Assembly: GCA_030770425.1 (NCBI GenBank)
Contig: JASJFT010000078.1
Coordinates: 124,001 to 188,000 of the forward strand
Direction of reading: 5' to 3'
From: Darksidea phi
Taxonomy: Eukaryota > Ascomycota > Dothideomycetes > Pleosporales > Lentitheciaceae
Length of the DNA stretch: 64,000 nucleotides
Shown: positions 28,761 through 61,654 of the stretch, one piece after another
How positions within the stretch are numbered: the first letter of the stretch is position 1
Layout of the letters: each line of letters opens with the position of its first letter
Position numbers and translations under genes: made by a program
Notes under the pieces: generated by a model
Told to the model about the DNA's origin: nothing
The model's input: the letters and a program-made list of their open reading frames with translations, nothing else
The model's database searches: none

Positions 28761-30538
28761 TGCCAAAGCTTGGTTACTCTGCAGCTTGAGCAACTCTCCC
28801 TGAATTACAGAGGGGTGACCTTCGGTCGCCACATGTCTTTATTGTCGGCATTGATCAGGATATGTCTAGCGGAGTGAGCGAAGCGCGGACCTTGCTAGTT
28901 GTTACGGACGAGGATCCGTCAGGGTATCCTTCGGAGCGATATGGTCACGTCGATGAGGATGACTTTGATTGTAGGAGTTGAAGAGTCATCGGTCCAGCGT
29001 TGAAGCTCAGTTTTCTGTGGATCGCACAATCGCCATTGAACACGTTAGGTTCCAGTGTCGAACAACGCCCTCGGGCAATAATCTGCAGTCGTTCCTTCTT
29101 CTACGACACGGGACCGCGCAACTCCGATTCCAAGGATTCGGTGGACACCTGCTAAGCTCTGAATGGAAATCAGTAGACAAGGGAAGGAATGATCCTGGAA
29201 AAGAAACTGCTTGCACGGAGCCCAGAACGGACGTCTAGATGTTCCATGGCCACATGGAAAGTTACACAACATCAATAAGCAAATATACCATGCGATGAGA
29301 GCGGTGCTCTTTAATCACGAAGGTATCACGCGCCGCTACCTGATTGTGTGGGGATAACCCAGATAGATGATGAGTCGCAGCTATTGGCGCGAATTGTACG
29401 CCCGAGCCTTGATCAGATCTCAAGGGCTTGCGATCCGTGACGAGAAACTGTTACACGGCGTTCGGTTAGAATAAGCAAACTGCTCAAGCCGTGCCACGAA
29501 CCAATCAGGAGCTCGCCGAGGATGGCCGGCCAGCGATTTTCTCGCATGGTGCGCTATTCAAGTCATGCGTACCCTGTTCTTTGTTTCCCAGAATTGACAG
29601 CGACATATTCAAATGTAAGAGATGGCGCTCCGCAGCGCTGGGTTTGCTCTTGACTCACTTCTTTGCCCTTCGGCTACGTCTTCCAGCAGCCAGGTATCGG
29701 GCTGTGCACCTTCTGGAAGGGGTTCAAAATCCTTTCAAGCGGCATCGCCTGTGCATCGGAGGCGTCGCCTATCGAACGCATGGCTTTGCTGGCTAAGTGA
29801 AAGGTGGCGAATAACGGGATACAACTGGCGCTCATTCGCGGCGCATCAGATATTAAAATGCAGAACCTATGTGGTCCTTGGCTAAGCGATGCAAACGACA
29901 GGACTGGAAAAGTCAACACGATGAGTCTTATCATGCAACACATTGCCAACTGTACAGTTGAGTGTCAGTTCTGAAACTCAGAGACGACAGCTGAATGACA
30001 GGCAGCGGTGCCCGTCACCAGATATGTTGCACTGGACACTCTACCAGAAGGGTACGTAACGATGACCTTTAGGCGACCTGTTCTCCCCAATGGCAATATC
30101 AATCCCGTCCACGTTTTTAGAAATATCCATCGTAAATTCTGCTAGAAACTAGGTATTTGGAACTGACAAGCTCAAACCGCGTCTTCGGTCCACGCCTTGC
30201 AAAACAAAAGTGTATGCACGCTTCCATTTCCGGGACCCCTACTGACCATTGGTCTCACGCCTTCTCGGAAGGTACCCTTGTCGTAATCCGCACACAAGAA
30301 TACGATGTGGGTCAGATGCGTGGGCGCATTTGACTACTGGCTTCCCGTGCGAATCACTTCGAAGACAAAGCAACCAAATTGCTATTGCAAATTTGCTCGA
30401 TCGTAATAGCCAAGAATAATCCCGTGGCACTCGGAGCCTTTGTCGATGTTCAAGTTGAAAACGAACCTCTTCCCTAGGCGAGGGACGCGAAAATCCGCCC
30501 CTAGTCATTCTCAATTGTATCTACCTAACGTTCCTAAC
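28761..30538. other. Long intergenic region upstream of the polyketide synthase
   Basis: About 1.8 kb. It may hold the last scraps of the F-box remnant to about 29240 and then the polyketide synthase promoter. No gene, TATA box or binding site could be supported. Confidence 0.45.
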
Positions 30539-33500: not shown

Positions 33501-35962
33501 TTCCCGCGGCCGTTTACTGCAACACATTCCGTCAAGCGACTGGTGCGACCATCTTGGATGGACTGGAACTCCGTGTTCCTACCACTCTGACAGTGGACCA
33601 ACGCGAGATCCAAGTCGTTGTACATGATAACACCGTTCGGCTCTCCTCACGTTTAAAATCACTGGTCTCGCCTCATGAGCCACAACATTCATGGGTCGAG
33701 CACAGTGCCTGCAAATGGGACAAGCAGGATATATCCGTGTTCCAGCAGGCGTTCTATATCGAAGACATCAAAAAGCGTATCGGTACCGTTCTGCCTAACA
33801 GCTTCGCATGGGATTTCCTTCGGACTATCGGTGTTTCCGGTATTGCGTTTCCTTGGGCTGTCCTTGAGCACTATGGCAACGCCAAGGAGATGATTGTGAA
33901 GATGGATATGGACCCAAATAGCCAAAGCCTGAGCTGGGACTCTCAGTCATGGGCTCCTTTTTTCGATGCTGCGACCTCGGTCGGCTCGTCCATTTTCTTC
34001 GGGGAGCCCAAAATGCGCATCGTCTCCGGTATCGATCAGGTGCAGTTCCTCTCAGACAAGGCTGCTCCAAAGCTCGGATACCTGCATATACAGGATGCAA
34101 CTGATAAGAAGAGCTTGGCGGTGGATATCAGCGTGCTCGACCTTGAAGGGGAACTGTTGGCTAAGCTTCAGTGTATGAGATTTTCTGATGTCGAAACTGT
34201 CTCCGATCGGACTACAGGCATCGATACGCTCGTGCATCGACTAGCCTGGATAGCCCCAGCTTTCACTGAAGAGGCTCTTTCGTTGGACAATGTCTTTTTG
34301 GTTACTGAGGATACGGAGCTTGCGAAGACTTATGCGAGCGAGTTGAGACCATTTACGCGCACGCTAGAGCAAGTCTCGTCGGTCAGTGCTTTTGACGAGG
34401 CCACGGTTCTGAATGCCTTCGCTCAGCAACCTGCTGTTGTTATTTACATACCCAGCCGTGTTCCGACAGCGAATGATATTTCCGAAAAGGCACATGTCTT
34501 CACATGGGAAGCTGCTAGCATCCTCAACATCCTCGCCGCTCACGACATACCGGCAAGACTTTTTATCATTACAGATTGCGTTCACAAGGGCTTATCTCCG
34601 ACTGCGCTCGCCCAGGCACCGTTACACGGTTTCGCACGGATCGCAGCACAGGAACATCCAGAACTCTGGGGCGCGCTGATTGACAATGAAGGCCCGCACT
34701 TCCCTCTACTCGCTATTCGGTACGTTCAAGACCAAGATGTGATATGCATTCGGGATGGATTGCCTCGCGTCGCTCGTTTGAGGCCGTTCATGACCGATCA
34801 GCGGCATGATGTAAGGTCAGGGAAGACGCTTTTACCGAAGGCACACGGGACATATGTCGTGACTGGTGGGTTTGGTGGCATTGGTCTTGAAATATTGGAT
34901 TTCCTTGTCGCGAAGGGAGCTCGTCGGATAATTGTCGTTTCCCGCCGTGGTCTTCCGCCGCGCAACGATTGGCCACATGCTACTGGTCAAATGAAGACCG
35001 TCGTTAACAAGATTTGGGAGCTTGAGATGAAGGGCGCGACTGTCCATGGCATCGCCCTTGACATTGGCGCTCCTGACGCCCATATCCAGATCCACGCAGC
35101 ACTCGATCGTCTCGCTCTTGCGCCCGTCCTCGGCGTTATCCATGCCGCCGGCATTAAAGAAGACGCACTTATCAAAGACACCACTCCAGAGTCGTTCGCA
35201 CGTGTCTTCGGCCCCAAAGTCGCCGGAACATTAGCTCTCCACAAAGCATTCCCACCCACTACCCTCGACTTCTTCATCCTCTTTTCCTCAATCGGCCAGC
35301 TCGTTGGAACACCTGGCCAGGCTCCTTATGGGGCCGCAAATGCCTTTCTCGATACGTTTGCTACACATCGCAGACAACAAGGAGACAATGCAGTGGCGTT
35401 TCAATGGACGGCTTGGAGGAACACGGGTCTCGTATCAGGTGACTCTAAGTTCTTGACGGTGGAGCTGAGCAGCAAGGGCATCACGGATATCACCTGTGAG
35501 GAAGGCTTCCAGGCTTGGGAACACCTATCGAAGTACGACATCGACCACGCCGTTGTAACACGTGCACGAGTTCTCGACGCGGACGAACCAATCCCATTCC
35601 CGCTCGTTACCGAGATCGCTACCCGTCGTCCGCCTACAATGCCCCAATCATTATCAACTTCTCCCAATCTGACCTTAATGAAGCCAACATCAGGCCCCGA
35701 ACTCAAAGCCTACCTCACCACCCAAATCAAGCAATGCCTCAGCACTGTCCTGCGTTTAGATATCGAGGAGATTGATACTAGAGCTGCGGTGGCTGATCTG
35801 GGTGTCGATAGCGTGATGATGGGTGCTTTGAGGTGGGAGATGCAGAAAGTACTCGGGCTCAAGGTTCCGCCGACGTTGGTTTGGAAGGTGGGGACTGTTG
35901 CGGGATTGATCGAGTGGGCGTTGGGCAAGGTTGGAGAGGCAGACGAAGGAAAAGGGCAGTAG
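30539..35962 (+). CDS. 6-methylsalicylic acid synthase-type partially reducing polyketide synthase
   Basis: Two exons, 30539-30622 and 30671-35962, give 1791 residues, the size of 6-MSA synthases. The 48-base intron has GTAAGT, TACTGAC and TTTCAG; it is a multiple of three without stops, so it could be misread as coding. Domains in order: ketosynthase (Cys203 in DAACASS, His339 in EAHATST, His379 in NIGHLEA), acyltransferase (Ser658 in GHSVGE), a DH-like/thioester hydrolase domain with His964 in HPLDGIEIIP, ketoreductase (VTGGFGGIG near 1425, Tyr1581 in GQAPYGAANAF) and one acyl carrier domain (Ser1742 in LGVDSVMM). There is no C-methyltransferase, enoylreductase or thioesterase. Family knowledge: such enzymes iteratively build aromatic acids such as 6-methylsalicylate, or the isocoumarin mellein; which one is made here cannot be told. 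An upstream in-frame ATG at 30446 is an alternative start. All catalytic residues look intact. Confidence 0.93.
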   Translation: MSKFEYPPTPRSPSTSSQSPLIDPPLSSVSSGHCHDVIVLTGFQLPTDDVAIVGMSCRTAGGNDTPEKLWKFLLEKKHASGKVPAKRWEPWLRRDPRNAKVIENTNTKGYFINDLENFDAAFFGISPKEAELMDPHQRLALELSWEALENAGIDPKKLAHSDTAVFMGVDSDDYSRLIMEDLPSVEAWSGIGTAYHGIPNRISYHLDLMGPSAAIDAACASSLVAIHLARQAIVSGESIVALCGGVNVLCAPGLTRMLDKAGALSSNGLCLSFDDDAQGYARGEGGAIIVLKRLASAIADDDNILAVLKGSASAQDGKTNGIMAPNGRAQELVAREALRRAGDLDPLTIGYVEAHATSTSLGDPTEVAAIANVYGVGRPSNALCAIGSIKPNIGHLEAAAGAIGFVKAVLAVNKGELAPQTLLKKLNTRIDWENTGLNVVREHSKWPETLTLRRAAICSYGYGGSVSHAIVEQTPPSYVTTQAFKKAYADREGEGIFSLVISSFQEKRLANQAISLADWLAAEGRHESLEAIASTLAQRRAAQDYRVAFTVATHDEATKAMRNFADGSLGRWATSNRILGSNVRKDVVWVFSGHGAQWTDMGKHLLEDRIFYEAIASLEHIVEEEAEFSALSALKHGDIGEADRIQVLTYLVQVGLTAVLKSKGIEPQAIIGHSVGEIAASVAAGCLTPEAGALVVSRRAKLYAQVKGQGGMALVFLSFSQVAAELGSRRDIVAAIDSSPSSCVVSGEVAALERYIAILHGRGVRTFRVKANIPFHSPMLDRLVDPLKCVLSGVLNPCPAAIPIYSTSALHPRAESLRNVNYWIRNMVDPVRLKDAIEAAAIDGYRIFLEVSTHPIVTHSIAETLATRGFEDSATIGVMERNVSADRSVLHAVSHLHTLGATVDFKTQFNTGYWATSVPGTPWVQKPYWKEVETGRILSAQQHDVDKHTLLGQCIDIAGADTRIYSTMLDDKSKPYPLIHPLDGIEIIPAAVYCNTFRQATGATILDGLELRVPTTLTVDQREIQVVVHDNTVRLSSRLKSLVSPHEPQHSWVEHSACKWDKQDISVFQQAFYIEDIKKRIGTVLPNSFAWDFLRTIGVSGIAFPWAVLEHYGNAKEMIVKMDMDPNSQSLSWDSQSWAPFFDAATSVGSSIFFGEPKMRIVSGIDQVQFLSDKAAPKLGYLHIQDATDKKSLAVDISVLDLEGELLAKLQCMRFSDVETVSDRTTGIDTLVHRLAWIAPAFTEEALSLDNVFLVTEDTELAKTYASELRPFTRTLEQVSSVSAFDEATVLNAFAQQPAVVIYIPSRVPTANDISEKAHVFTWEAASILNILAAHDIPARLFIITDCVHKGLSPTALAQAPLHGFARIAAQEHPELWGALIDNEGPHFPLLAIRYVQDQDVICIRDGLPRVARLRPFMTDQRHDVRSGKTLLPKAHGTYVVTGGFGGIGLEILDFLVAKGARRIIVVSRRGLPPRNDWPHATGQMKTVVNKIWELEMKGATVHGIALDIGAPDAHIQIHAALDRLALAPVLGVIHAAGIKEDALIKDTTPESFARVFGPKVAGTLALHKAFPPTTLDFFILFSSIGQLVGTPGQAPYGAANAFLDTFATHRRQQGDNAVAFQWTAWRNTGLVSGDSKFLTVELSSKGITDITCEEGFQAWEHLSKYDIDHAVVTRARVLDADEPIPFPLVTEIATRRPPTMPQSLSTSPNLTLMKPTSGPELKAYLTTQIKQCLSTVLRLDIEEIDTRAAVADLGVDSVMMGALRWEMQKVLGLKVPPTLVWKVGTVAGLIEWALGKVGEADEGKGQ

Positions 35963-45292: not shown

Positions 45293-46951
45293 GTCCGCGA
45301 GCTGGGGCTTCGGGGTTGGTGAGGATAGGCGGCATTAAGAATAGCGGCCATATGGCGACGGAACCTCTGCCCATAGCAATCCCCACCCCCGCCGCCTTGC
45401 ACAATGCTGCAGCCACCAAGTGGACCATACCATCATCCCATATCGCCCTGTCGAGCGCGTCCCTTTTACAAGCCTGCAGCGTCACCTCGCGCCATTCTGT
45501 CCGTCGCCATTAATTTTCTCCTTCCCGATGCTGCTCTTGTTGAGTTGGTCTGTATATGTTCTTCACACGTCTGTCTCTACTGCCACGCAGCTACGCCGCA
45601 GCCCCCCACGCGCGCCTCCATGCGATACGTAAAAGACGCGGCGACTGCTCGTCCTGGGGTTTGAGGCGCGGAGAGCATCAGCAAATACCACGTCGCACGC
45701 CCTTGGCATCTCAGATCCATACGGCCATCTCCCACTCACCCTCAGCCACAGAGTCAACGACGCAGCGCTGAGCTGCAGGCCGCATCGCATGACATGCTAC
45801 CTCATTCGGGCGCAAATATAGTTCCGCCAGTTGCGCAGCGAGCACAAGTCTACAAAGCTTTTGAACGGCAGACACGTACCAAAGTACCGCCGTTACTCGC
45901 ACTGCATCTACTGGCTGCGTTGTGTACACCAATTGGCCCTTGAAATCTCGCCCTCCAAGCATTCAGTGCTATATCCGCGGAGCTCAGGGCGCGTCATACA
46001 TGCGTCTAAGGTGCATATGTGGCTCCCATGGCTGTTGATATGCTGCGATGAGGGCCATTGGCGACTGATGGCCTAAACATGTGTAAAGATTTGCTAATAA
46101 GGCGCAATAACGGCGTGGGCTGAGTCGACCTCAGGTGGGTCGGTTGCCACTGCCCCCGAGAGCAGGGATACGGAGCATGCCCTACCAAAACCTCGTGCAT
46201 CTACAGCCCCTGCCCCTATCCAGCTGCTCGGTTTAGACACTGACGACTGCTATGTCTCTACTACAGCAGATCAGCTACAAAACCTCGCCATGCCAACCAC
46301 TGCGTCGCCCTCCCCGTCTTCTGTCGCTCTGTTGGCGCTTATTGCTCTGTTTCCGGGATGGCCCTTGGTGGATGCAGCTCCAACTCATCTTCATCAGACA
46401 GCACGAGGAGCCATGGCGAACGAGCACTTGGTGTTAAGAACGAAGGCCACAAGTTGAGAGGGCGACGGCTGCTGCACCCTGGAGCTACGTTGATGACCAC
46501 CAAACTAATAGCCGATGTAGAACACCACACTCGCGAAACTGACTACGCTCCAAGGAGTCGCCCAGCCTTTCGAACGTCCCCTTGGTCCGCCGTAGCCTGC
46601 CGTTGCTGATAGTGCTGGTCGAACTCTTCGACCATCCCGAGGTAGAGGTACCGGCGCGGATAAGATGTCATGATGAAAGTTGAGAAGCTCGAGAGCTTCT
46701 ACATTGTATACGAGACCACGGTTTGCTGAAGAAGAAGCAGATGAGCGCTCCTCCATCACAATGATAAGCGGCAAGTCTGACGTTGTGTAGACAAACATTG
46801 TGTTGCCCGTCATGACATCTGTCACCAAAATATGTTTCCATGCTCCAAACAATGCAACCCGCGAGACATTGTTCAGTTCAGCTCAGACGCTTTATAAGGT
46901 CGTTCGATCTGTTCCGGCCTCACCAACACCCACACCAGAATCATCACCAAC
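45293..46951. other. Intergenic region
   Basis: About 1.7 kb with only random frames. A TTTATAAG element at 46891-46898, 54 bases before the J-protein ATG, may serve as its TATA box. Confidence 0.45.
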
Positions 46952-47839
46952 ATGGGTATCCCAACGCACTACACCACATTGGAGCTGGCCCCGTCTGCGC
47001 CGGACGCAGTCATCCGCGCCGCCTACGAGGCTCTCTCGCTAATGCACCACCCCGACAAGACACGTGAATGTTTACCAACAGAGCGAGCCCGCCACGCTTC
47101 CGCCTTGCGCGCTGTACAAGAAGCCTATAACGTCCTCAGCGGCCCCTCAAAGGAGGCATATGACGCGGAGCTCAAACGGCACGGGAACCGCGTTGACGTC
47201 ACTCGTTCTACCTTTCACCAAGTGCCGACAGCAAAAAAGCCTAGGTCCGCTACGTCAAGACGCCCTCAGATCAAGCTGGCAAGTGATGCGGAGAAACGTA
47301 TGGCGAAGGCAAAGGCGGGAAATGACCTTGATTATCTTCGTGAACTACGTGCTAAGCGAGACGTGGAAGACGCAAAAATGGACATCGCGGGTTTGGAGGT
47401 CATGCAAAAGATCTGGTCGGATGTGGCTGAAGAGACTGAAGATGACCTATCTCTGCAAGCGCACTGTGCTGCTCAAATCAAAGCATATGAGACAAAGATC
47501 ATAAAGCGGAAGGAAGAGTACGCAGAATGGCTTAATAGCATGGCGAATCCCAAAGTCTCTCCGGAGACGCCGCCATCGAAGAGAACTTCTATGTCTACGC
47601 CCAATGCGCCTCGCAAGGCCAAGACGAAGGTCACTATGAAAGACGGTACGCCTGCCAGCGGTGAGCAAGAAGGTATCTCTGCAGCACGCAGTGCTGCTAG
47701 ATCGGGAGGGAAGAACGCGTGTGAGAATTGTGGTGCTGAGCATGCTTCTATTGCGGAGTGGTGCAAATGCAACCGGCGCAAAACGACGCAGCAGAGTAAT
47801 GGCTTCGGAAAGGTAGATCCCTTTTTCGTTGTAGTCTGA
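46952..47839 (+). CDS. J-domain (DnaJ-type) co-chaperone with C-terminal Cys motif
   Basis: A single exon of 295 residues. The J-domain occupies about residues 5-75: HYTTLELAPSAPDAVIRAAYEAL, then the HPD triad in MHHPDKT, and QEAYNVLSGPSKEAYDAEL. It lacks the Gly/Phe region and DnaJ zinc fingers, so it is a class III J-protein. A charged, predicted helical stretch follows (about 110-190), then a basic Ser/Pro/Lys-rich region. The end carries NACENCGAEH and EWCKCNR, four Cys that could bind one zinc ion. It would stimulate an Hsp70 ATPase; the client and compartment are unknown. The gene looks intact. Confidence 0.9.
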   Translation: MGIPTHYTTLELAPSAPDAVIRAAYEALSLMHHPDKTRECLPTERARHASALRAVQEAYNVLSGPSKEAYDAELKRHGNRVDVTRSTFHQVPTAKKPRSATSRRPQIKLASDAEKRMAKAKAGNDLDYLRELRAKRDVEDAKMDIAGLEVMQKIWSDVAEETEDDLSLQAHCAAQIKAYETKIIKRKEEYAEWLNSMANPKVSPETPPSKRTSMSTPNAPRKAKTKVTMKDGTPASGEQEGISAARSAARSGGKNACENCGAEHASIAEWCKCNRRKTTQQSNGFGKVDPFFVVV

Positions 47840-48907
47840 TGCTGAATCCTTTAAACCATGTCCCTCAATGAGTAATCGGTCGTGTCATAATCGCACAACC
47901 TCATAGAGAGTAATCGTAATAGTATCCTTCTCAAACACGACGAGTCAATGTACTCTATACACCCTTAGATATCAAATCAATAAATGACAAGAATTGAATA
48001 ATAAAATTGCAAAAACCTTGATTCTCTCCTCCCACCTCATCCCTTGCCCCTCAGCCCTCCCCCACCATTCCCCTACCCTACCTTAATTCTAAGTGTAATA
48101 TAAATACCATTACGTTTCAAATTTCCCTTCTTACAAAGGTGTTCCTTACTATCCTTACAAAATATACCAATAGAACTTATCTCGTAGTAGTATGAGGCTG
48201 GCATGCCGGCGTGAGCTGTTATCACGCTAGCTCATATAGCCGCACCTGCATATACTCCTCATACTCGTATATAAGCTGCTCTCCTACAGAGCTATTACAA
48301 TCAATGCGGTGTTTCATATCTACATTTCACTGACCCATATTGCGGTAGCAGTTCATACACGAGCACTTTCGATACCTCGGGTCATTTCTGACAAGGCGTA
48401 GAAGAGAGAAATGCGAGGTGGAGTCTTGGCGTATGTTTATATGGCATTTTGTTTTGGTAGAGCAACTGCTTAGAGATAAGGGTTATTCGGCCGCCGCTCT
48501 TCTCCACATATTGGCCGAATGGGAATTTACCCAAGGTATGCAGAAAGTCTCGGCAAGAAATTTTCTCGGCGTATTACTGTTCTCAAGAACTATGTTCAAT
48601 CTTTGCTGCGAGTATGTTTCTAGACGGTATATCGTACCATCACACATACGCTGAAGACGTGAATATCCCATCCTCTCCGCTGTACACAACCGTCAGTCCA
48701 AAACAACAACGTATTCGGAAGGGAAAGCTCACCTTAGCTCTAGCCCAAACGACAATCCAATTCCCATTCTGCAAGCTATCGATGAGCCCCTCGCCCTCTC
48801 CGGCGCCCTCGTTCCCACCCCCCCCCCCAACGCGGATTCGCTGCGCATCCCCATACAACGCGATAACGCTTCGCAGTGGCTCTTGCAACAACGTTGCCCT
48901 GTAGCCA
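47840..48907. other. AT-rich intergenic region
   Basis: About 1 kb. The first 350 bases are AT-rich with pyrimidine-rich stretches; no gene is supported. Confidence 0.5.
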
Positions 48908-49521
48908 CTACGCATGCGTGCCCTCCTCTTCAACTGGCCTAGGAGCAAACGAATGCGCCGGCCACGTCACCTTCTTCATCTCAGGACTGTGTAGTCGATG
49001 CGACTCCATGGCCGTCGAGGGCCTGGGCATGAATTGAACCCCCCAGATGTTAGCCATACGCCGGGCTTCTTCGATGTTGTGCAGTCTGGTTTCGTTCTGC
49101 AGGTGGGTCACGAGATGTGCGTCGCCTGGATCACTCCGCATTTGGGACACCTCGAACCATGACGAGGTTTTGTAGGTGCCTTTGGTACCTTCAGTAGTCC
49201 AGCCTTGGTCGTGGCTCTCGATGGTAAAGTCGAGTTCCCGGATCTTGGGCTGTTCGCCATCGGACAGTTTGGAGAGCTGGAGCGGCACGCAGAGGTATGG
49301 AAAGGCGACTGAGAAGTCTTCGTGCAGCCTTCGCCATAAAACGCGTATCGCGTAGCGGTTTTAGTCGTACATTCGACCCAGTAGTGTGCGATGTCTAGTG
49401 TAAGTAGGACCAATTCTGTGGGTAAACGTAGCAAGGCAAGGATGCTGCGTATTTCTCGGACATCGGTAGGGCTCGGGACGAAATTGGACTGACACCGTCC
49501 CGCTTGCGTTCCTGTAGCCAT
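48908..49521 (-). CDS. Small protein with F-box-like start and SHDQGW motif, function unknown
   Basis: Two exons on the reverse strand, 49521-49371 and 49308-48908, give 183 residues. The 62-base intron (GTACGA...CTCAG, with GACTAAAAC) is needed because the two halves are in different frames. The first exon ends with LLRLPTELVLLTLDIAHYWVE, which resembles the start of an F-box. The second exon starts FAFPYLCVPLQL and contains IRELDFTIESHDQGWT, then GTYKTSSWFEV and HLVTHLQNETRLH. The SHDQGW...GTY...SWFE pattern is one I associate with a family of uncharacterised fungal proteins, without known activity. The alternative is that the two halves are fragments of another decayed F-box gene. Confidence 0.6.
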
Positions 49522-49891
49522 GATGTTTGTTTAGGAGAGGGATGTGCGTGTCCAAGGCAGCCAGCACCAGAACCGATGGTTGGAAACTAGCGCTTTAAGA
49601 TACTAGCACGACTCGGCCACGCGACAACCGCCCCGCATTAGCTCGCGCGCATCCTTTTGCTCTCGCGTCTCACCGCTCGTTATCTCGGACGCACTCGTGC
49701 GGCAACTGCATGCGCTATCATGCACTCTTACTGGCTTCAGGCTATGCTGTTGCCTGGACTCGCCCGGCCAATGACTTGGCGCGTTCTACAAAAGACGCAC
49801 TGTCCCGTGCCGACGCGTCCTACATGTACTCGTACCCTACATATCCATTCACCAGACTGTATGAGTTCAGTTCATTTCTGTTGGATCAATC
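49522..49891. other. Divergent upstream region of the SHDQGW and rvt genes
   Basis: These 370 bases separate divergent start codons. No motif is recognisable. Confidence 0.5.
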
Positions 49892-52555
49892 ATGTCGGGA
49901 GATTCCAGCTTCCTTTCCCAGACTTTACAGTCAATCACCGCCACCAAGACGCGTGAGCAGCACAAGCGTCGCAAGAACTTCGAAGCTCGCAAGAGTCAGA
50001 TCCTCGAGACTGCTAACGGCGCCCCTGATGAGCGCACTCGGCTTGACGGTCTGATCTCCGGCTTTCGTGATCTCTCCTCGAGCAACAAAGGCATCGGTTA
50101 CGTGGACAATGACCGGAAGAGCACAGTCGAAAATATGACCCGGTACCTGGAGCAGTCCCGCTGCGACCCTTCGGTGTCATCGGACATTCTGCACCAATTC
50201 GAGAGGAACTTACGACAGAAGTTGGACCAGGAGAGCGAACGATTCAGCTTCGCAGATCTATACTATCGCCTGCTGGCCGAGTGGACCGATGCCAACAGCA
50301 CGCCCATTATCGAGTCGGAGCGGAACCAGGAGGACCTTGATGGCTCGTACGAACATGTGCAGAAGTACAATCTACAGAACTTGAAGGACAAGTTCAGCAA
50401 TGTCGTCTTCACACCATTAGAAACTGATGAAGTTGAGATTGATGCTTACCTCAACTCTCTCTTCGATGATGAATATGCCGAGAAAAAGTTAAAGCAGGTT
50501 CGAACCAGCGTTGCTCAGTTTGCGGTCGGGCTCAAGCAACGCACAACGCCGTTCAATGCAGTCGTTCTAAAGGCATGCATCCAGGCACTTCTGACCAACA
50601 ATCTACTCAACGATGGAGCGAAGACGACACTTTCCGAGTTCTTAACGAACGACGTTGTCCTTGATGAAATCGCCGATGTTCTCAATCTGCGTTTTTCGGA
50701 CCTCGATAACTGGTCTTGGGAGGCTGATGAGGGGTTATATTACGAGCCGCGTCGACAACTTAATGGGAAGTACCGCATCATGATGGACCAGGATATCCTC
50801 CAAGCCATCTTCCTCCACTACATCGCCGTGAGCTGGTGCACTGAGTTAAAATTCCGCTTCAGTGCCTTTCCGCATGACAATAGATTTTGGAAAGGCTCTA
50901 GAGAGATGACAAAAGACGAGAAAGCGCGCCATCAATTCTTCACTGGGACAGCACGTCAGCCAAATGCATTAGAGAATGAAAAAGCCAACGCTTTCCGTAG
51001 CACATTCCTCCTCTCCACGCTACCAACGAAATTCTCCGACGATTCCGATCCGTATGGCAAGGAGGACGATTCAAACGAAACGACCAAAACGACCAAAACG
51101 ACCAAAACGGGCATGAGCGTCCGCCAGGAATTACTTCGCCAGATTGCTACCGATGTCATCATTCGTCGGGCGTTGCATGGCGATGTTGCTGTCGTACAGT
51201 CAGACCTGCAGTGGTACGCTACCGCGCTGCCGCATTCAACCTTATTCGCTGTGCTTCGCTTCTGGGGTGTGCCAGAAGACTGGGTTGCTTTCTTTGAAAA
51301 GTATGCGGAAGCGCCTTTGCGCATGGATGAGGCACCAGGCAGGAATGTGCGGACCAGAAAGCGTGGTATCCCAATCACTGATGCCTTCGAAAAGCTATTC
51401 GGCGAGTGCGTGCTATTCTGCATGGATATTGCCGTCAATCGACTCGCTGAAACGACACTCATTCGTTTCCATGATGACCTATGGCTCTCCGGCGATCCTT
51501 CGATGTGCGCAAGCGCTTGGGAGACTATCGAGGGTTTCGTGAAGGTGCTCGGCCTAGATATCAATACATCAAAGACGGGTTCCGTATACATTGCTGATGC
51601 GGAAAAAGATGCCGTTATCGCCTCAAAATTGCCTGGAGGGCAGGTCTGCATGGGCATGCTGCAGCTGACAGACACTGGCGACTGGACCATCGATCAAGAG
51701 CAAGTCTCAGCCCATGTGCGCCAGTTACAGAAACAGCTTGGTCAATGCAAAAGCATCATCTCATGGATTCAGACCTGGAACGCCTGTATGGGACACTTCT
51801 TCCAAAACACATTCGGCCAGCCTGCGAACTGCTTCGGTCAAGGACATGTCGATGCCATCCTCGCGACGCATACCAACATGCAACGCGAACTCTTCGAGTC
51901 TCACGACGGTAGCGTCACGCAATACCTGCGAGAGAAGATCTCCCACCGCTTCGGAGTCCAAGACATTCCCGATTCGTTCTTCTTCCTACCCGAGGAGTTC
52001 GGCGGCTTAGGCTTGCGGAACCCCTTCATCCCTTCTTTCGTGCTCAAAGACCAGTTGATGAAGAATCCACGCACCCGCATTACCGAATTTCTCGAGGCGG
52101 AGAAGAACGCCTACAAGGTTGCCCAAGAAAACTTCCTCTCTTTGCACGACTCCGAGAAAAAACAACGCTTCCGCTCCGCTTACTACGGCAAGGACTCCAA
52201 GGACTCCGCTATCTTCGACGAACCCTTCTTCTCCTTCGAAGAATACACGTCTTACCGTGAAATCTATTCCCGCGAACTGCGCCGCGCATACCTCGATCTC
52301 ATGCGCCGACCCGCCGTCCAGCACATCAAGCTCGCGAAGGAGATCGAGCCGTGGTTTGTGGAGCTGAAGCATTCGCATCAGATGGGCTGGGACGACTTAA
52401 GCAGCGAAAATAAGTGGATCATGCATTTGTATGCAGAGGAGTTGAAGAAGAGGTTTGGCGCGTTGAGTATTGTGGATAGGAACTTGCTGCCTAGTGGGGT
52501 TATGAAGATGTTGAAGAGGAAGAAGGTGGTTTGGCAGTTGGTCATCTGGGGCTGA
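49892..52555 (+). CDS. rvt: Cellular (non-mobile) reverse transcriptase-related protein, rvt family
   Basis: A single uninterrupted exon of 887 residues from ATG 49892. The first 430 residues are mostly charged and helical, with a possible coiled coil near the start (TKTREQHKRRKNFEARK). The RT core follows: motif A in VVQSDLQWYATALPHSTLF with Asp438; GVPEDWVAFFEKYAEAPLR; motif B in RTRKRGIPITDAFEKLFGE (from about 489); and motif C RFHDDLWL with Asp528 and Asp529, so the three catalytic Asp are present and the usual Tyr of YxDD is His. Conserved thumb-side blocks include QCKSIISWIQTWNACM and GQPANCFGQGHVDAI, then RFGVQDIPDSFFFLPEEFGGLGL. No endonuclease, integrase, gag or RNase H is seen, and no terminal repeats flank it. 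This matches the rvt genes described as single-copy host genes in fungi and a few other lineages, whose biological role is unknown. Confidence 0.93.
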   Translation: MSGDSSFLSQTLQSITATKTREQHKRRKNFEARKSQILETANGAPDERTRLDGLISGFRDLSSSNKGIGYVDNDRKSTVENMTRYLEQSRCDPSVSSDILHQFERNLRQKLDQESERFSFADLYYRLLAEWTDANSTPIIESERNQEDLDGSYEHVQKYNLQNLKDKFSNVVFTPLETDEVEIDAYLNSLFDDEYAEKKLKQVRTSVAQFAVGLKQRTTPFNAVVLKACIQALLTNNLLNDGAKTTLSEFLTNDVVLDEIADVLNLRFSDLDNWSWEADEGLYYEPRRQLNGKYRIMMDQDILQAIFLHYIAVSWCTELKFRFSAFPHDNRFWKGSREMTKDEKARHQFFTGTARQPNALENEKANAFRSTFLLSTLPTKFSDDSDPYGKEDDSNETTKTTKTTKTGMSVRQELLRQIATDVIIRRALHGDVAVVQSDLQWYATALPHSTLFAVLRFWGVPEDWVAFFEKYAEAPLRMDEAPGRNVRTRKRGIPITDAFEKLFGECVLFCMDIAVNRLAETTLIRFHDDLWLSGDPSMCASAWETIEGFVKVLGLDINTSKTGSVYIADAEKDAVIASKLPGGQVCMGMLQLTDTGDWTIDQEQVSAHVRQLQKQLGQCKSIISWIQTWNACMGHFFQNTFGQPANCFGQGHVDAILATHTNMQRELFESHDGSVTQYLREKISHRFGVQDIPDSFFFLPEEFGGLGLRNPFIPSFVLKDQLMKNPRTRITEFLEAEKNAYKVAQENFLSLHDSEKKQRFRSAYYGKDSKDSAIFDEPFFSFEEYTSYREIYSRELRRAYLDLMRRPAVQHIKLAKEIEPWFVELKHSHQMGWDDLSSENKWIMHLYAEELKKRFGALSIVDRNLLPSGVMKMLKRKKVVWQLVIWG
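51080..51109 (+). repeat. Nine-base tandem repeat inside rvt coding (TTK)3
   Basis: Three exact copies of ACGACCAAA plus a partial one encode Thr-Thr-Lys repeats at about residues 397-406, just before RT motif A. It keeps frame and lies in a polar linker that starts with an acidic patch (GKEDDSNE). Confidence 0.85.
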
Positions 52556-52775
52556 GTTCATGGTCTTGCACGCAATGGAAATGAAAATAAAAAGGTGTGG
52601 GCATTCCCTTGGCTTATATAAGTCCCATCCAGATCATGACAGGAAATCCGTCACCGCTTCTAAAGAAAAAGAGCAATATACTGTGCTGAGTCCTACGCAT
52701 TCTACCCCATCCTCTCTCCACCTATATTGGACATAATCCGCTCGTCTCTCGATTTCCCGCGTGCATTTTCCCCTC

Positions 52776-53120
52776 TCAGTGAACATACTTCTCCATCATC
52801 TCAATCAAATCCCGCCACGCAATCTCCTCCCGAAGACGCGCTTCTCGCTCCCTCTCCTTGCCATCTCTAGACACAATAGTGAGACCATGTACCAAGGCAA
52901 AGGAAGTAAAGATATCAACGTACCGGAGAGCAGTACTAAAGGAACCGATAATGTACTTCAGCGGCGACATGGACTTGGAGAGAGCGTTGGCCAGGCGTGT
53001 CGTTGGTGTGGTTGCAGTGTGGTAGATGGAGATTGTTACTGTTGTTATGGAAGAAGTGATGATGTGATAGAGATAAATCGTTGTGGTAATGAATGACGTG
53101 TAGGTAGGCCTGGTGGGCAT
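52776..53120 (-). CDS. Small hypothetical protein, Thr-rich N-terminus and charged helical C-terminus
   Basis: An ATG-started frame of 114 codons. The N-terminal 45 residues are Thr/Ile/Tyr-rich and could act as a membrane or mitochondrial-type segment. Residues 55-80 (YIIGSFSTALRYVDIFTSFAL) are moderately hydrophobic, and the end is a charged helix (DGKEREREARLREEIAWRD, then LIEMMEKYVH). I do not recognise the family. It converges with rvt, the two stops being about 220 bases apart. The C-terminal half looks protein-like, which is the main reason to call it. Confidence 0.5.
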   Translation of the reverse strand: MPTRPTYTSFITTTIYLYHIITSSITTVTISIYHTATTPTTRLANALSKSMSPLKYIIGSFSTALRYVDIFTSFALVHGLTIVSRDGKEREREARLREEIAWRDLIEMMEKYVH

Positions 53121-55061
53121 TTTTTGTGTTGTGGTGGTCTGCCCGAGGTATCTTATTGATGGTGTGATAGTGAGTGATAGTAATGTAGTAATCGATATGA
53201 TTGGTGCAGGGTCAAATATCTTTGTAAGATGACCGCAGCGGCAATCGTTTGTGTGGGATAAATCGGAAATGTTAGTGTAGGTGGAGAAGGAGAGAAGGCA
53301 CCATACCAGCGATTTTATACTGGGCGGCTTTGATGAGTCATGATGGGGCTTACGCCTGGCGTTCTCATGGCTACGCGGTAGGTATTTTCCTGCTCAGAGG
53401 CTTGGCACCGAGATCATGCTCACAACATTGCGCCATGAGGGTTCTAGAGCGGGTATGCTGACCGCACACGAATTGCACTACTATTTCGACTATTCTCGTT
53501 TCACAAAAACTGGGACACGTAGCCGCGGAGGTGGCATCTGACATGACGAAGTACTACTACGAAGATTATTTTCACCGTCGGGAGCCACGCACACGTACGC
53601 AAGTTTCTAACCCTTAGTCAATTTGGCGGCGATTTCCGGCCCGTATAATACGTTTTAGACTATTGATACTGGCGAATATTCAAAGTAGCCCTGAAAAACT
53701 ACTAATGAATCCGGGATTTGCATACCTCCTCAACGTGCAAAACACGTATTTTGCCCTCAATCTCGATGCCTTTCGCTAATCATGCTTAGCTTGACAAATC
53801 TCCCAGTTCGTGGACAACTCGCCGGGAGTCGTTCAGGTATTCAAGAAGCACGGAATTCTGATGGAACTGGAGAGTAGCTGCGGAGGGGATAGGCTGCGCG
53901 AAAAGGTGCAAGACCGGGAAAGAGGCTGTTAGAAAATTGGCTGCTTCGTATTATCCAGGTACGTAGGCAGCTCTTGTATTGAGATTTGAGGCGGTGTTAA
54001 CATGAGTGGGGGTGGCGAGAGTTACGGTGGAGAAAGATAGGTCATTGCCATTTCGAGGATCTGTGAAGACGTTGAGGGGTTGTTGGGCAGGCTATGCGGG
54101 GTGGTTGATATCGAATGAGTAGCAGCCATCGCGTCGTCAAACTCGCGGAATAACCCATAAAGGTGATCGGGGAGGTTGATATACGTGAACACAGTTTCCT
54201 AAAGGCTGTTGTGGAAGTGGCTTTCTGATGTTTCTGACTGGAAAGTGCTTCTTGAAGACCCCTTGCCTAGAAATTTCCTGAATAGGCAATAGGTGTTTTA
54301 AAGACTGTTTTCTCTAGCAAATATTGTAAACTACTTGCCGAGAAACGAGCGCTTGGCCCTCCAATTGGTTGTGTTCGCTAATACAAATACCTGTTACAAC
54401 AGTCAATCCGGTGAATGAAGACATAACCATATCTTCAGATAGATAAACGTCCATAACCTTCAAAGCTACGTGATGCAGAGTATCTTCTTTAGCTCTATGA
54501 TAGTTATCGCTATGTTTCAGCACAGCGTAGTTGTTTAGTAGTGCAGAGCTGTCCATTCTACGAGTACGTATTGAAACAGACGATGCCTGCTTATCCTCTG
54601 CTATTCTTGTCCAGATTTCTGGCAGCTTTTTTTAAGCACAGAAAACTCTACTGAGACTTTAGAAGCACCAAATGTAAGCACATGTCTATGTGGAACCACC
54701 GTTATTCGATACAGGTTGTACTTGGGCAACAACGATACGGAAGCATTTAACCTATGATCTATGCATGAAACAGGTTGTACTGAGAAATAGATTCATAGAG
54801 TAGCAGATGAGGCTACGTTAGATAGTTTTCATACCGGACGGGGGATGATGCGACTCGTGTATTCCCTATTCTCAATCTCAGCGCGAAGAATATAACCTCC
54901 GGCAAGAGAGCTCGCCAATGTCGATTTAGCCGGAGTCAATGGCGCATGTCTACTAGAACCGTGATCATGAAAAGCAACTGCCAAAGCCATGCAACGCTGA
55001 AACACATGCGTGTCTTAGCCTAATACAGCAGCTCTGAACCTCCACCATCTTACTTCAACGT
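53121..55061. other. Long intergenic region without a supported gene
   Basis: About 1.9 kb, AT-richer in 54240-54800. An 80-codon reverse frame at 54556-54314 has no motif. No repeat structure or transposon ends were noticed. Confidence 0.5.
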
Positions 55062-58000
55062 TCAAAGCCTACTCCTTCTATTCTTTGGCCGCCTATCATT
55101 CTCAACCGGCTTCGAAGCTATCGACAGCCCACCGGCAGTCTTCATTCCCAAACCCACACCCTCAGAACCCATCACCATCGTATCCGGCATCTCCGTCCCA
55201 ATATTCCCCGCCGACGCCCCAACAGGAAGCGTACGAGAAAACGGTCGTCTCTCTCTCACCGAAGAATCGGGTGCCTGCTGCAGCACAATTCCCCTCGATG
55301 CAAGCCAATGAGCTCCCAGATTCGCATGATGTTGTATAGTCGACTGGACTGGTGGCTGGAAAATTCCATCAGATATGGTGGAGGCTAGCTCGGTTGGGCT
55401 GCCTTGTCGCTTTCGGGTAACTATGTTGGAATACTCGCTCTGTCTATCTTCCAACTCATGCTCAGATTCAGAGGACGAGAGTTCTGCTACCCATCGTTTA
55501 ACGAGCTTCCTTTCGGCCTTTTGCTGCTTTGAGAGGGACCCTGAGTAATCATTGGGCGGGAAGGATTGTTCCAAATCGAAGCCACGATACGGAGGGCTGC
55601 GCATCAGATTCGGATTCCGCGCGCGGAAGGATGCCGTTAGGCCTAGGTTCTCGCGGTCGATGGGGGAACCGAGCATTCGCATACGTTTTACTCGATGCGT
55701 AAGTTCATTTTGAATTGACGGTTCTTCTGTAGGCCGCGACGGTAAGGTACGCGCATCTGCAATGGCAATTGCTCGCTCTCGTATGGCTGTTTGCAGACGA
55801 GAAATCTGCCGACCGCCTGACGATATTGAAGGTAGCCCTTTCTTGAGTGATAGTGCTCGCAGTCGTCTGTGGGTATCCGGTGCAAGCTTACCTGCAAGAC
55901 CCTTCGGCCTCAGCATCTTCCGCTTGCTTACCTTGGCCCCTTCCTCAACCTGTTCTGCAGTCTTGAACTTGGCCCAGTGTTCCGGCCGCGGATAATCGAA
56001 GAATTGATTAGGTAAGTTTGGCAGAACTTTCATGTCGCCAAAATACGTGGGCAAGAATGGATCCGCCGACTCAATATCCAGCGGAGATATGGGAAGATGA
56101 CTGAATTGATTGCCCGTTCGTGGCACTGATGCAAAGGCAACAAGTCCTTCTCGTGCAAGGACGATGCGGCCAGTAGATATTTGGCTGAAATCAGATGGGT
56201 TCGCTATTGGGTATGATCGCTCGGAGACCGGCATATCTTGTGCGGTGATTCCAAGCGCGTTGGCAAATTTCGACAGCAACGAGAGTGGTACGTAATGCCC
56301 TTGAAGTTTGTTTTCGCCACGAACCTCTGCAAAGTTCTCACACCGAACGTCCTGATCGGTGAGACATGCGTTCAACTGCTTCAAGGTAGCGATACGATGC
56401 AGTTGCGTAGCATTGAACATTCTGGAAGGAATATGATAGTAGATGGCATGCTTTTCTGTGATTAAAATTTCCTTGCCGAGAGCTATACCTACTAACGTTT
56501 CCAGTTGCTTTAGTGTGCTTTCCATTGCAGGAGGAAGATCCCCGTTTCGCGTCAAAGCTGCTCGGAGAGATCCGATCGTCTGCTGGGTTATGAGCGCGCC
56601 ATTCGGAACGATGATGTTTTCGTATTCAAACATGACAGCGTCGCGCCACTTTGGGTATATGTCGCAGCAGACGGCGAGATACTGGGCGAGAGATTGTCCG
56701 TCAATCCCTACCTGCGGTTGAGCATATGCACTCTCCTGAAATGCGCCGGGCTGGAACGGGAACGCCTGGACGACGGTAAAAGTTTGCCAGGGATTCCTGA
56801 AATCACCCTCTAAAGATCGTAATTTATCGCAGATGTTACGAGGTATAAAATCCCACCTCTTGTGGTACAGCGGGTTGGCAAGATCGTCCAAAAACTTGTG
56901 GCCCAGAGTCAAGATCATGGAGTAGTCCTTGGCACCCTCAATATTCTGACTGGATCTCCTCCACTCATGGATTATTTCCTGTAATCTATTTTTCGTTATA
57001 GGGCTGACTTGAAGCTGGCCTGCATTGTGCAGCTGGTTCGTCTTCGCGCGGGACCAGTCCATCTCTTTCTTAGCCAGAACTCTCAAGAGCTTCTTGCCGT
57101 ACTTCGAGTACCGGTCATCACCTTTATCGTCAAAGTAGTGAGCGCAGGTTCGTTGGGCCATGGCATGCTCTTGTTCCGCTTTTTCCGTCCTCCATCGCAT
57201 TTCCTTTTCGTCGACAGCATTAGGTGCCAAGGCTTTTCGTAGCGCCCAGATGCTGCAACAATCCTCAATCAACTCCATAGCTTGTCGGCTATCTTGAATC
57301 ATTGCCGCTCTGGGTATTTCCTCTTCTGGTGGAATAGAATAAGCCGTAGAGTAGTCAACCAGAAGTAGCTTGTCAACACGATCGTCTTGGAGGCGGATGA
57401 GGACGCTATCCCAGTCCACAGAAGCATGGATGATTCGGTGAAAATGCAGGAATTCGAGAGCAGAAAACAATGGACGCAAAATTGCAGCGGCGACTTGAAA
57501 GCGAAGTCCTGGATGCTTCTCTTTCAGACCCACTTGCAGCGCCCCGTATGGAGACATCCCTTGATGGGTGTCTGTGATGATCGCCGGAACACCGTAAAAC
57601 TCTACTGAAGCCTTGTATCGCACAATGGATTGGTGAGTCTAGAGAATTGTTAGGTGGGAGGCAACGGAACCATAGGTAAGGAAAGCTTACCTTCTCTTTG
57701 AAAAACATTAGCATCTCCCTATCTCGCTTCTCGTGCCCACGCGCACCGCGAAACAATTTGACCGTATCCGTCCTACCGTTGAATCGTTGAAGCACTCGAT
57801 AAGACCTGGTCGAGCATGGTTCTACGTCGGTGCTGAATATCCATCGCGAGCGTGCCCAGATTTGCGTGTTTTCTTCGACATCCTGCAAGTCCTCCAATAA
57901 TGGTGCAGCTTCAAAATCAGGCTCCAAGTTGAGAACATGGACAGCCTTCTTAATAAACCATATGTCAATCTGCATCCCGAGCACATCCACACGATTGACC

Positions 58001-58521
58001 TTAGACTCGTCGAGGTAGAGGGCATGCGGAACATTGACTTTTTTCTTCTTGGTTCTCGTTGTGTACTTTTGAAGTGGAACTCCGTTGACTATCGTTACTG
58101 TTTCGGAGGCGGAATCCACTCTCCAACATCCAGCTTCTCGCGCAGGGACTAAGCTGAACTGTTTCTTCGCTACGCTAGTGTGTGGCAAGTAGACGTCGAG
58201 TGCAGCCGTCTGCGTGGTGATTGGAGTCTTCCTAGCTCTACCGAAATCGTACGTTGGCTGACCCACTATCCGATGAAGATAGATGTGACAGCCCACCACT
58301 TCGTCTAATCCTGTTGATGGAATTTCGTCTCTTATCCGTAGTTTTCGGTACACAGTATCGCGGTTAGCAACAAATGCGTCCGAATGATGCAGGGTTACAA
58401 CGGCAATGAGATCGTCCACGGAAACTTGTTTCGGGATCTCGGGGCAACCATCTGGAAGATCGAGCTCATTCTGGGCTCGAGGCTTTGCCATGTCGACGTC
58501 TCTGCGAAGGCTCGGATACAT
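55062..58521 (-). CDS. FHA-domain protein with a pseudokinase-like region
   Basis: Two exons, 58521-57691 and 57638-55062, give 1135 residues; the start could also be the Met at 58491. An FHA-like domain lies at about residues 60-190 (YDFGRARKTPI, KKQFSLVPAREAG, TIVNGVPLQKY; the Arg, Ser and Asn-Gly positions expected for phosphothreonine binding). A protein-kinase-like fold follows. ALEFLHFHRIIHASVDWDSVLI sits where HRDxKPxN should be, and LLLVDYSTAY where DFG should be, so the catalytic Asp and the Asn are absent and activity is unlikely. Then come helical regions shared with a fungal family of such proteins (CCSIWALRKA; ILTLGHKFLDDLANPLYHKRWD), and a long basic, Ser/Pro/Arg-rich tail (from about 830) ending in RRPKNRRSRL, possibly a nuclear signal. 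The function is unknown. Confidence 0.85.
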
Positions 58522-59698
58522 CAACCGTGTTCTTACTGGCGATAAATATATTGCGGAGGAAGAGACACAGGGGGCGTGGTTGAATCTGGGCGGGTCGGAT
58601 CGGGATCTGCATGCCAATAAAGCGTTGAGACTCTGACATAGCGTTCGATTGTTCGATTTGGGGTTTTATAGCGGCCGTACAGCAAAGCGTCGCCTAGCGA
58701 CGCACATCTTAGCATGATCGGTGAACTCTAGGCCACATCCTGACCGAGCTGTGCCGCGGTGTCTTGGAATAGAGTTAGACCGACTCACTCGAGTGATCTT
58801 GCTGCTGTGACGAGGCGTCCTCTGGGATAGCAGCACATCCCTGGGTGTCCCAGATAGCCAGGGAAGATCCCCAGAGTAAATTAGTCAGCACGTAACAAAG
58901 ATTTGACTCGTTGAACTACGGTCCGACAGCATCGCACTTGAATTCTTAAGGGAACAATTAGTGACGAAAGTCTTCGCGTCGTAAGTCACTGGTCGTGTAG
59001 CTGCCCCCTCATAGCAGTTCAACGCCCCACTCGTCCGTTTAGAACGCAACCTATCAGCTCTGCTATACAGACGCATAAGATTTTGTTTAAGCCTTTCAGC
59101 TGATGGCGCAGCGCTGCCATACCGGAATATTGCGTGTGATTTTCGCGCCACCTTGCAACGACCGTCTCTCAAACTCAATGGATTTTTGCTCAAGAGTGTC
59201 AATGAATAGCAAAGGTGCCATATTCAGAACGATTTCCAATGTTAAAAGAGAAGTCAGTACCAAGGCCAGCTTCACGATGATGTGGTCAGAAATTGTTGTG
59301 GCGTTGGCTGTTGCTAGCCATGGATGAGGGTAGGAAGCGTCTTTTCAAAATGCAAGGCCTCTCTAGTAGTAGAAACTTAACCAAATACTAGAGCAAGTCT
59401 GATTACGCGATCATATGCTGGAGAGAGTAGGTAATTAGTTGTTTGATCTGTTTGCTCCTTTGCGATGGAAAAATAAACACGCTAATCTACGAACGGATTA
59501 GCGTTATACGTAACACATTTTCAAGCATTGTCCACGGCATCGTTCTTCCGTTAACGCATAAAACAGCATGCAAGTGTTCAAGCTAAACTCGGGGATAGAT
59601 TGAGAAGCTTCTCATAAACTACGTCAACACTCGCGAGGCAGTTTGTTATCGCAACTTTGGCTCAAAGGGGACAGTGTGAAGCGAGTACAGTAGCGCGC
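58522..59698. other. Intergenic region without a supported gene
   Basis: About 1.2 kb. On the reverse strand near 59330-59100 an open stretch with a hydrophobic segment (VKLALVLTSLLTLEIVLN) has no ATG, no partner exon and no recognised family. It could be a fragment of a lost membrane protein. Confidence 0.45.
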
Positions 59699-61654
59699 CT
59701 ACGCGACCTCTACGGATTGGACGCCGCCACCCTCAACTCCTTTCCGCTCTTTCTCGACCTCCCTAACATTTTTGTGTTCAATTCCAAAGGAGGCAAAAAA
59801 AGCAAGTCCTCCGGCCACTAGCAGAAAGATGAAGACTTCCCGAACCCCGTTCTGATATGCCAGCCTGAGTGTGTGCAACTCTGCCGGAGAACGTGTCAAT
59901 GCTGGCAAGTTGTACGCTCCTGCTTCGATGACAGCAGCCACTGGCATATCTGGGACTTTAGACCTTATGTCCGAGGTCAACTTGCTGAGGAAGATGGTCT
60001 GGAATACGCAGAGACTCAATGCCCCACCGAACTGGAAGGCAAACTGCAGCAGTGCTATTAAAAAATTTGTAAGCGTTTCCCGTTACCATGTCTACCTCGT
60101 TCAGAACAGTCGAGGCAGCAGTATATGGCAGATTGATCGCGCTACCAGTACCGATACCGCAAATGACGAAATACGCTATCCAGCTAGCATGGGCGGTATT
60201 GAAATTGAGAAGCGTAACGAGCCCAGATCTAATCACACTCAATGCCGTACCTCCGATGATGAAAGGTGCCTAGTGATGTCAGTCGTGATCGTATCACACC
60301 GTGCCACTGACTCACGTAGTACCCGAACTTCGAAACCAGTGCTCCCGCCACTACCACGACCATGATCTGTGTCAATGCCAGAGACAGGATCTCCATCCCG
60401 CTTCTCTGCGCGCTGAAACCTTTCACTGCTTGGAAGTACATCGGTATATAAATGCCGTACTACCAGTATTAGCGTCATCTTTGCGTGTCGGTGCAAGGTA
60501 CCCACCGAGAAATTTGGCATTGAGAACAGGAACAAGTACACTGCCCCAGAAGCAATAGACCTTTGCTTGAGTACTGAAAAGGGTATGACCGCTTCATCAC
60601 CCATCTTCCATTCGACGAACAGAAAGAGTGCGAGCAAAGTCCCGGATACGCTGAAGAGGTTGATTATCTTAGGAGAGGCCCAAGGTAGACTCTGACCACC
60701 CCATTGCATTGCCATAAGCAAGCAACACAATGAAATTATTATTAGCAAACTTCCTGCTAAATCGAGCTGGAAGAATATCTGCTTCACGTTGTGCCTAGAC
60801 CGACCCGCCGCTTCGCCGACAGACTCCAGTTTCAGAAAAGCTGCAACTAGAAGTGTAGCGATGGCGCCGAATGGTACGTTACTGCCTATGATCAGTCCCC
60901 AACATCATGCATGGCAAATTTTCTGGGACTCACATCCAGAAGCACCATCTCCAGAGTCCTCTATCGGCCAATGTTCCCCCTAGCACCGGTCCGATACCGA
61001 TACTAACACCAAACGCACTGACGAAGAGACCGAAGTAGAAGGGGCGTTTAGCTAAGGGCACTATCTTCGTTACAATAGCAAACGAACCCTGCATAAGGCC
61101 CGCAGCTCCGCAGCCTGCTACAGCCCTTCCGGCGATGAATACTGGCGAAGAAGGGGCAGCGGCGCACAGTATGGATCCAACTACGAGGCGTCAGGCACAA
61201 CTCCAACATTGATAGGAACAGAGCTCGTACCTTCGAATACACCGATGAAACCAAGGTATAGAAATTTGGTGTCTACAACTTTATACAACTTCCCAAAGGT
61301 TGGTTGCAAAGCCGTCAGTGTCAGCAGATAGCCACTTCCGTTCCAAGTGATCGCGTCAAGTGTGTGGAATTGGGTGGTGATGGCGGGGATTGCAGGACCA
61401 ATGATGGTGGTGTCCAACGCAACGAGGAAAGTGCCTAGGTACAGTGAGCCGATGACAACGATGAGCCACCCGGGCGTCATTTCAGTGCGAGTTTTAGAAC
61501 CATTTTGGTTCTGGTGGCATGTTAAGAATCGATCTAGCCCGGAGGACGTCTCGGGGTAGGTACAAAGAGGATTGTGTGCGGGAGTACAGGAAGAGATGGA
61601 ATGGTGTTGTCGAAGTGCCTTTTCAATGGCTTCATTGAGCTCGTGTTGCTCCAT
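59699..61654 (-). CDS. MFS transporter, DHA2 (14-helix) drug-efflux type, last junction doubtful
   Basis: Exons on the reverse strand are 61654-61231, 61180-60934, 60881-60506, 60459-60316, 60269-60087 and 60043-59699, giving 572 residues as drawn. Motifs: GTFLVALDTTIIGPAIPAI (helix 1), GSGYLLTLTALQPTFGKLY (motif A region), GIGIGPVLGGTLADRGLWRW (motif C type) and FWINVPFGA, created exactly at a splice junction. The first four introns (46-52 bases) are canonical and in phase. The fifth is a problem: the conserved TGNA...LLQFAFQFGG stretch is split by about 19 extra bases (60055-60073) that shift the frame. The 43-base intron I used (60086-60044) restores frame but removes VTGNALLQ. The gene may be damaged. 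It would export drugs or metabolites at the plasma membrane. ATG 61720 is an alternative start. Confidence 0.78.

Follow-up and report, generated by a model that had tools for sequence, protein, structure and literature searches.

The 64,000-nucleotide stretch of contig JASJFT010000078.1 analysed here (the window) carries at positions 49892-52555 of its forward strand an intact gene, P0001, for a reverse transcriptase (RT)-like protein of the rvt family, whose product and role are unsettled in the literature. We regard it as almost certain that the gene belongs to rvt, is non-mobile and comes from a fungus near the Pleosporales, and its product is probably an RT-fold polymerase that adds nucleotides without a dedicated template. 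The best overall explanation, held with slightly less assurance, is a template-independent polymerase primed from Tyr388 and working under stress. The evidence comprises an intact gene, a modelled fold, a near-invariant catalytic triad, a placement by profile, a conserved Tyr388 and a small residue at the steric gate. Membership in a known family is by itself ordinary; the value of the finding comes from the unsettled state of this family and from data that single out two residues, which yields two precise and cheap predictions, on Tyr388 and on the steric-gate residue 443. If they are true, a eukaryotic gene would be placed beside the bacterial protein-primed defence polymerases.

The original prediction of an intact 887-codon frame with its core catalytic residues holds. 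The frame runs from ATG to TGA with no internal stops (100 mononucleotide shuffles of its 2664 bases gave open runs of at most 247 codons); motif A (VVQSDLQWY) contains D438, and HDD occupies residues 527-529 (RFHDDLW). The structure model of the 887-residue product is a confident RT fold with D438, D528 and D529 as its triad. An N-terminal coiled coil is a feature of rvt proteins; the model has here a long helix, residues 7-42, a candidate multimerisation element; residues 1-172 modelled in isolation reached a predicted local distance difference test score (pLDDT) of 55.8, too poor for structure search. The gene and its parts are the following.

49892..52555, forward strand: rvt reverse-transcriptase-like gene (P0001), 887 residues in a single open frame (from the frame, the profile and the model)
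49892..50701, forward strand: N-terminal helical region, residues 1-270 (from the RT_UG37 match, which starts at residue 10, and the model)
50741..50785, forward strand: finger beta-hairpin, residues 284-298, in which RRQLNGKYRI is RT motif 2 with K293 and R295 (from the model and alignment)
50786..51181, forward strand: region of the insertion (loop 2a) that separates RT motif 2 from motif 3, residues 299-430 (from the model and alignment)
51053..51055, forward strand: codon of Tyr388, inside a variable acidic loop, a proposed priming residue (from conservation in 241 of 242 proteins)
51182..51217, forward strand: motif A, residues 431-442, with catalytic D438 (from the motif, model and alignment)
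51218..51220, forward strand: codon of Ala443, the steric-gate position five residues after D438, D+5 (a residue that is Ala or Gly in all but ten of the 242 proteins)
51461..51493, forward strand: motif C, residues 524-534, RFHDDLW with D528 and D529 (from the motif, model and alignment)
51689..52552, forward strand: thumb and C-terminal helical region, residues 600-887 (from the motif and model)

The catalytic residues are preserved almost throughout an alignment of 242 family proteins, made up of P0001 and 120 listed relatives (clade A) and its paralogue P0122 and 120 listed relatives (clade B); 21 of these are shorter than 800 residues, and distant members are under-represented because only best-scoring matches were taken. 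D438 and D529 are present in all 242 and D528 in 241, and among the finger residues K293 is kept in 241 and R295 in every one. Purifying selection is a trait of rvt genes; what was observed here is a strongly conserved protein. Two variants of the motif C triplet were also seen, HND instead of HDD (Asn at D528) in P0093 and TDD in six clade A proteins, P0108 and P0121 included.

The interpretation of the gene as a member of the rvt class, likewise proposed at the outset, is supported by the profile search, which puts P0001 in the RT_UG37 model of PADLOC, away from retrotransposon RTs. RT_UG37 matches residues 10-724 of P0001 at E 2.5e-61 (profile positions 4-668 of 778), all other PADLOC models score 5e-4 or weaker, and Pfam RVT_1 stays below threshold (E 0.064, 13.4 bits, cut-off 29.6). 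The paralogue P0122 is matched at 4e-75, and the same behaviour was seen in four other relatives and in the first frame from the third locus. Across the whole genome the five RT_UG37 matches all fall at three rvt-family loci, and no retroelement RT is among them; the gypsy polyprotein and the LINE-type (long interspersed nuclear element) RT of the same genome are unmatched by it at E up to 1. RT_UG37 is a model of prokaryotic RTs, and we infer that it represents the bacterial branch of rvt. A search for relatives of P0001 returned 206 proteins at E up to 1e-3, the best 120 of which range from 76% to 40% identity and mostly match along the entire length, 17 being shorter than 800 residues; the named ones are presumably Pezizomycotina, with the Pleosporales nearest.

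Other collections added little. NCBIfam gave no match to P0001, and its matches of P0122, to models of group II, retron and Drt3a RTs, fall far short of the cut-offs. PHROGs matched neither protein at E up to 0.01, a scan of viral contigs for the family pattern returned 40 stretches, none confirmed, and the Herpetosiphon plasmid pHAU01 had no RT_UG37 match. A tblastn search of plasmids with P0001 gave no match at E up to 0.1; with P0122 it hit 111 records, and all 20 that were listed align to 19% of the query at roughly 25% identity (three are named ltrA, one 'Reverse transcriptase' and 16 are nameless). Our literature search, judged by titles, found no paper devoted to the UG37 RT group.

The layout of the protein is also that of an RVT. 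PMC5718144 (in part) describes these genes as domesticated, on long branches and carrying a big loop 2a that separates RT motif 2 from motif 3; no other RT group, according to this source, occurs in bacteria as well as in eukaryotes. In P0001 the spacing from R295 in motif 2 to D438 in motif 3 is 142 residues, against 38 in the gypsy and 68 in the LINE RT control of its own genome, so that P0001 bears the large insertion of the RVT type; across the 242 proteins the spacing is 133-195 residues. The orthology to the Neurospora crassa RVT, judged on features, is putative. Altogether, the data support P0001 as a new member of the known rvt family.

It is very improbable that the gene is instead what remains of a retrotransposon, or a retroelement RT captured not long ago, although the genome is rich in retroelement RTs, with at least 150 scored RVT_1 matches. 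Apart from the RT_UG37 placement, which was judged by profiles, and from a triad kept in relatives down to 40% identity, the claimed absence of mobile-element partner domains was borne out, as Pfam at E up to 1 gives the sub-threshold RVT_1 match alone; RNase H, integrase and protease domains are all present in the gypsy control. So was the absence of terminal repeats: the region 46500-55500 holds no inverted repeat at a minimum length of 20, and its direct repeats at that length amount to one 21-base pair, 81% alike. At the level of DNA a 4-kb query finds no place in the assembly but its own, in a search that bypasses simple repeats and very common words; at the protein level family members lie at other loci too. 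With the profile placement, the missing partner domains and repeats, the one DNA copy and the unmatched controls, a retrotransposon origin was rejected. The dinucleotide indices of the gene (TpA/ApT 0.49; CpA+TpG over ApC+GpT 1.29) show no sign of repeat-induced point mutation (RIP), and among six retroelement loci that were measured (L001-L006, out of eight) four have a TpA/ApT higher than 1.1. Many of the retroelement RT copies carry TAG or TAA stops, and L002-L005 have the raised TpA/ApT that RIP would give.

The genome holds three rvt-family loci, namely the window gene, a paralogue on C458 and a third on C477, and remnants on C445 and C120. The C458 paralogue, P0122 (G000:C458:182844-185693), is intact, with 950 codons, and 32% identical to P0001 by BLASTP; the clade of the window gene itself has one locus in the genome. 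A quick tree was built from 62 rows (31 from clade A, 30 from clade B, and C477; SH-aLRT support (Shimodaira-Hasegawa-like approximate likelihood ratio test), no bootstrap and no outgroup). In it A and B fall on opposite sides of a branch with support 100; they are two deeply separated paralogous clades. Among the listed matches both clades occur in ten named species: Kalmusia sp. IMI 367209, Paraphaeosphaeria sporulosa, Didymosphaeria variabile, Massarina eburnea, Polyplosphaeria fusca, Lojkania enalia, Periconia macrospinosa, Periconia digitata, Parastagonospora nodorum and Physcia stellaris. Since Physcia is a lichen fungus, its possession of both would make the split between A and B older than the parting of the lichen lineage from the Dothideomycetes, provided that neither copy was transferred.

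The third locus (G000:C477, about 10397-13335) lies on the long path between A and B, closest to B by path length, and because of this position its clade depends on the root. Its frame departs from the family at six of the 32 near-invariant positions checked, including D438 to V, K293 to E and R295 to S, and retains the DD pair and a loop tyrosine. The break in the frame coincides with a short, intron-like GTACGT...TAG stretch and, because it looks like an intron, the locus may be intact and encode a protein devoid of polymerase activity, possibly a pseudoenzyme, rather than being a pseudogene; such a paralogue lacking the motif A aspartate could serve the rvt enzyme as a structural partner. 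Weak short remnants of the family were seen at C445:147603-148351 and C120:45169-45408, some with stops.

The first of the two residues singled out by the alignment is Tyr388, kept in 241 of the 242 proteins (121/121 in clade A and 120/121 in clade B) amid ten positions on each side whose mean conservation is 0.30. The surroundings differ between the clades, being mostly DPY or GGY followed by acids in A, and mostly RDY in B, where acids follow at the third and fourth positions. At least one tyrosine is present in the P378-Q412 loop of all 242 proteins, exactly one in 185, and the next-best tyrosines of P0001 in both clades are Y294 (225/242) and Y741 (222/232). The block around Tyr388 has a mean pLDDT of 60, and Tyr388 stands two residues ahead of a stretch, 390-403, with pLDDT below 50; because of these low values the loop is taken as flexible. 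The priming tyrosine of AbiK lies mid-way in a long unstructured finger loop (PMC9508834, in part). This resemblance, together with near-invariance among variable flanks, is the ground on which Tyr388 is tentatively proposed as a priming residue, an assignment that we consider rather doubtful as it stands.

The second is the steric gate at D+5, where 232 of the 242 proteins have Ala or Gly (Ala 99, Gly 12, Tyr 6 and Cys 4 in clade A; Gly in all 121 of clade B). The group II RT 5hhj has Phe at this position, in an ungapped stretch of a profile alignment whose whole match has E 0.02. As a bulky residue at the gate normally shuts out ribonucleoside triphosphates (rNTPs), Ala or Gly there would mean relaxed sugar selection, and suggests that the P0001 family excludes rNTPs weakly.

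The course of events that we infer for the polymerase chemistry, the priming, the use of rNTPs, the oligomers and the role in stress would be as follows. The protein would assemble via the long helices of its N-terminal region, loop 2a, flexible and acidic, would deliver Tyr388 to the D438/D528/D529 centre, and the first nucleotide would be attached to this tyrosine, the growing chain remaining bound to the enzyme; the small gate would admit rNTPs alongside deoxyribonucleoside triphosphates (dNTPs), and the setting would probably be nutrient or translation stress. Non-templated polymerisation by rvt, and a relief of stress that depends on its catalytic residues, are described in a meeting report (PMC10680173, in part). 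In its most specific form, namely a protein-primed, rNTP-adding enzyme that uses Tyr388 as primer and makes protein-linked nucleic acid tails in translation-stressed cells, maybe with two old paralogues, the proposal is a long shot.

Several observations weigh against this explanation, and some of them favour a reading that departs from it only in the role of Tyr388, which would be a regulatory site for phosphorylation or partner docking, synthesis starting elsewhere on the protein or at free 3' ends as in a terminal transferase. We rate this alternative as a serious possibility, though short of probable. The acidic surroundings of Tyr388 resemble many modification or docking sites, so that it could instead be modified, and the C477 copy keeps a loop tyrosine despite having lost D438, K293 and R295, which weakens a purely catalytic role. 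A study of the bacterial HaRVT reportedly found priming at tyrosines near the C-terminus and a preference for dNTPs, in disagreement with both Tyr388 priming and rNTP use; the C-terminal tyrosines of P0001 are, for their part, less conserved than Tyr388 (Y847 200/228, Y800 205/229, Y741 222/232). Terminal transferase activity has been reported for the N. crassa RVT (PMC3520738, in part). On the other side, a near-invariant residue whose neighbours differ by clade is somewhat easier to reconcile with a hydroxyl that is used than with a linear recognition motif.

The remaining adverse points concern the gate, the setting and the family. The tyrosine at the steric gate of six clade A proteins means that the small residue is not obligatory. 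No TGASTCA site occurs in the 1000 bases upstream of the gene, so that the simplest amino-acid-starvation element, this CPC1-type site, is absent there. Furthermore, rvt is described as single-copy, whereas this genome holds three loci. RT_UG37 also matches three of 14 control prokaryote genomes (Escherichia coli, Bacteroides ihuae and Methanosarcina acetivorans), the same three as are matched by RVT_1, and is therefore able to see ordinary prokaryotic RTs, and two DNA-pattern scans for bacterial loci (55 and 46 stretches) gave none that was confirmed.

A further alternative keeps the polymerase and supplies it with a template: like DRT9, DRT10 or telomerase, the enzyme would hold a separate noncoding RNA in the groove between finger and thumb and copy it repeatedly. 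DRT9, an RNA-templated enzyme (PMC12483538, in part), is the one solved protein that the family profiles reach with an E below 0.01 (E 1.9e-3 and 9.8e-5), and RT_UG17, which has been named DRT10 and linked to telomerase (PMC12632851, in part), is the second-best PADLOC model for P0001, P0122, P0108 and P0197. However, the affinity to RT_UG17 is not specific, as the gypsy RT matches that model too (2e-7), and a link from rvt to DRT10 and telomerase by this route was set aside for this reason. The non-templated polymerisation given for rvt in the meeting report cited above also speaks against a template, and we consider this alternative improbable.

The surroundings of the rvt gene were predicted to be normal gene neighbours. 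This stands for the upstream frame with a DnaJ domain; the frame named after its SHDQGW motif (49108-49521, reverse strand) matches nothing in Pfam at E up to 0.01. Other features of the window are listed here.

46952-47839, forward strand: frame with a DnaJ domain, upstream of the rvt gene (E 7.8e-11)
55062-58665, reverse strand: two long overlapping frames downstream, by eye resembling a single kinase-type gene, both with no Pfam match at E up to 0.01
30410-35962, forward strand: polyketide synthase frame with KS, AT, KR and PP domains (from the domain search)
60239-60904, reverse strand: frame of the TRI12-type efflux pump family (E 8.8e-7)

Among known systems, telomerase RT (TERT) resembles P0001 as an RT fold encoded by a host gene, and Foldseek places a Candida TERT at rank 48 (E 4.3e-5); P0001 differs in having no telomerase-specific Pfam domain at E up to 1. 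That TERT is missing from the 50 VIA rows carries no evidential weight. DRT9 differs in its noncoding RNA template, none being known for P0001. RT_UG37, listed under DRT in PADLOC, is alike to the extent that its match includes the N-terminal region, and differs in that the last 163 residues of P0001 lie beyond the match and that the host here is a fungus. AbiK, Abi-P2 and DRT1 carry out template-free, protein-primed synthesis with an RT fold (PMC9508834 and PMC13275509, both in part), a mode that is proposed here; P0001 differs from them by the place of its loop, between motifs 2 and 3, and the PADLOC AbiP2 model matches only P0122 and the relative P0197, weakly. Finally, the rvt/RVT proteins of fungi, rotifers and bacteria differ from the present case in that this genome has three family loci instead of one, and P0001 shares with them the non-mobile RT fold, the large loop 2a, the N- and C-terminal extensions and the intact triad.
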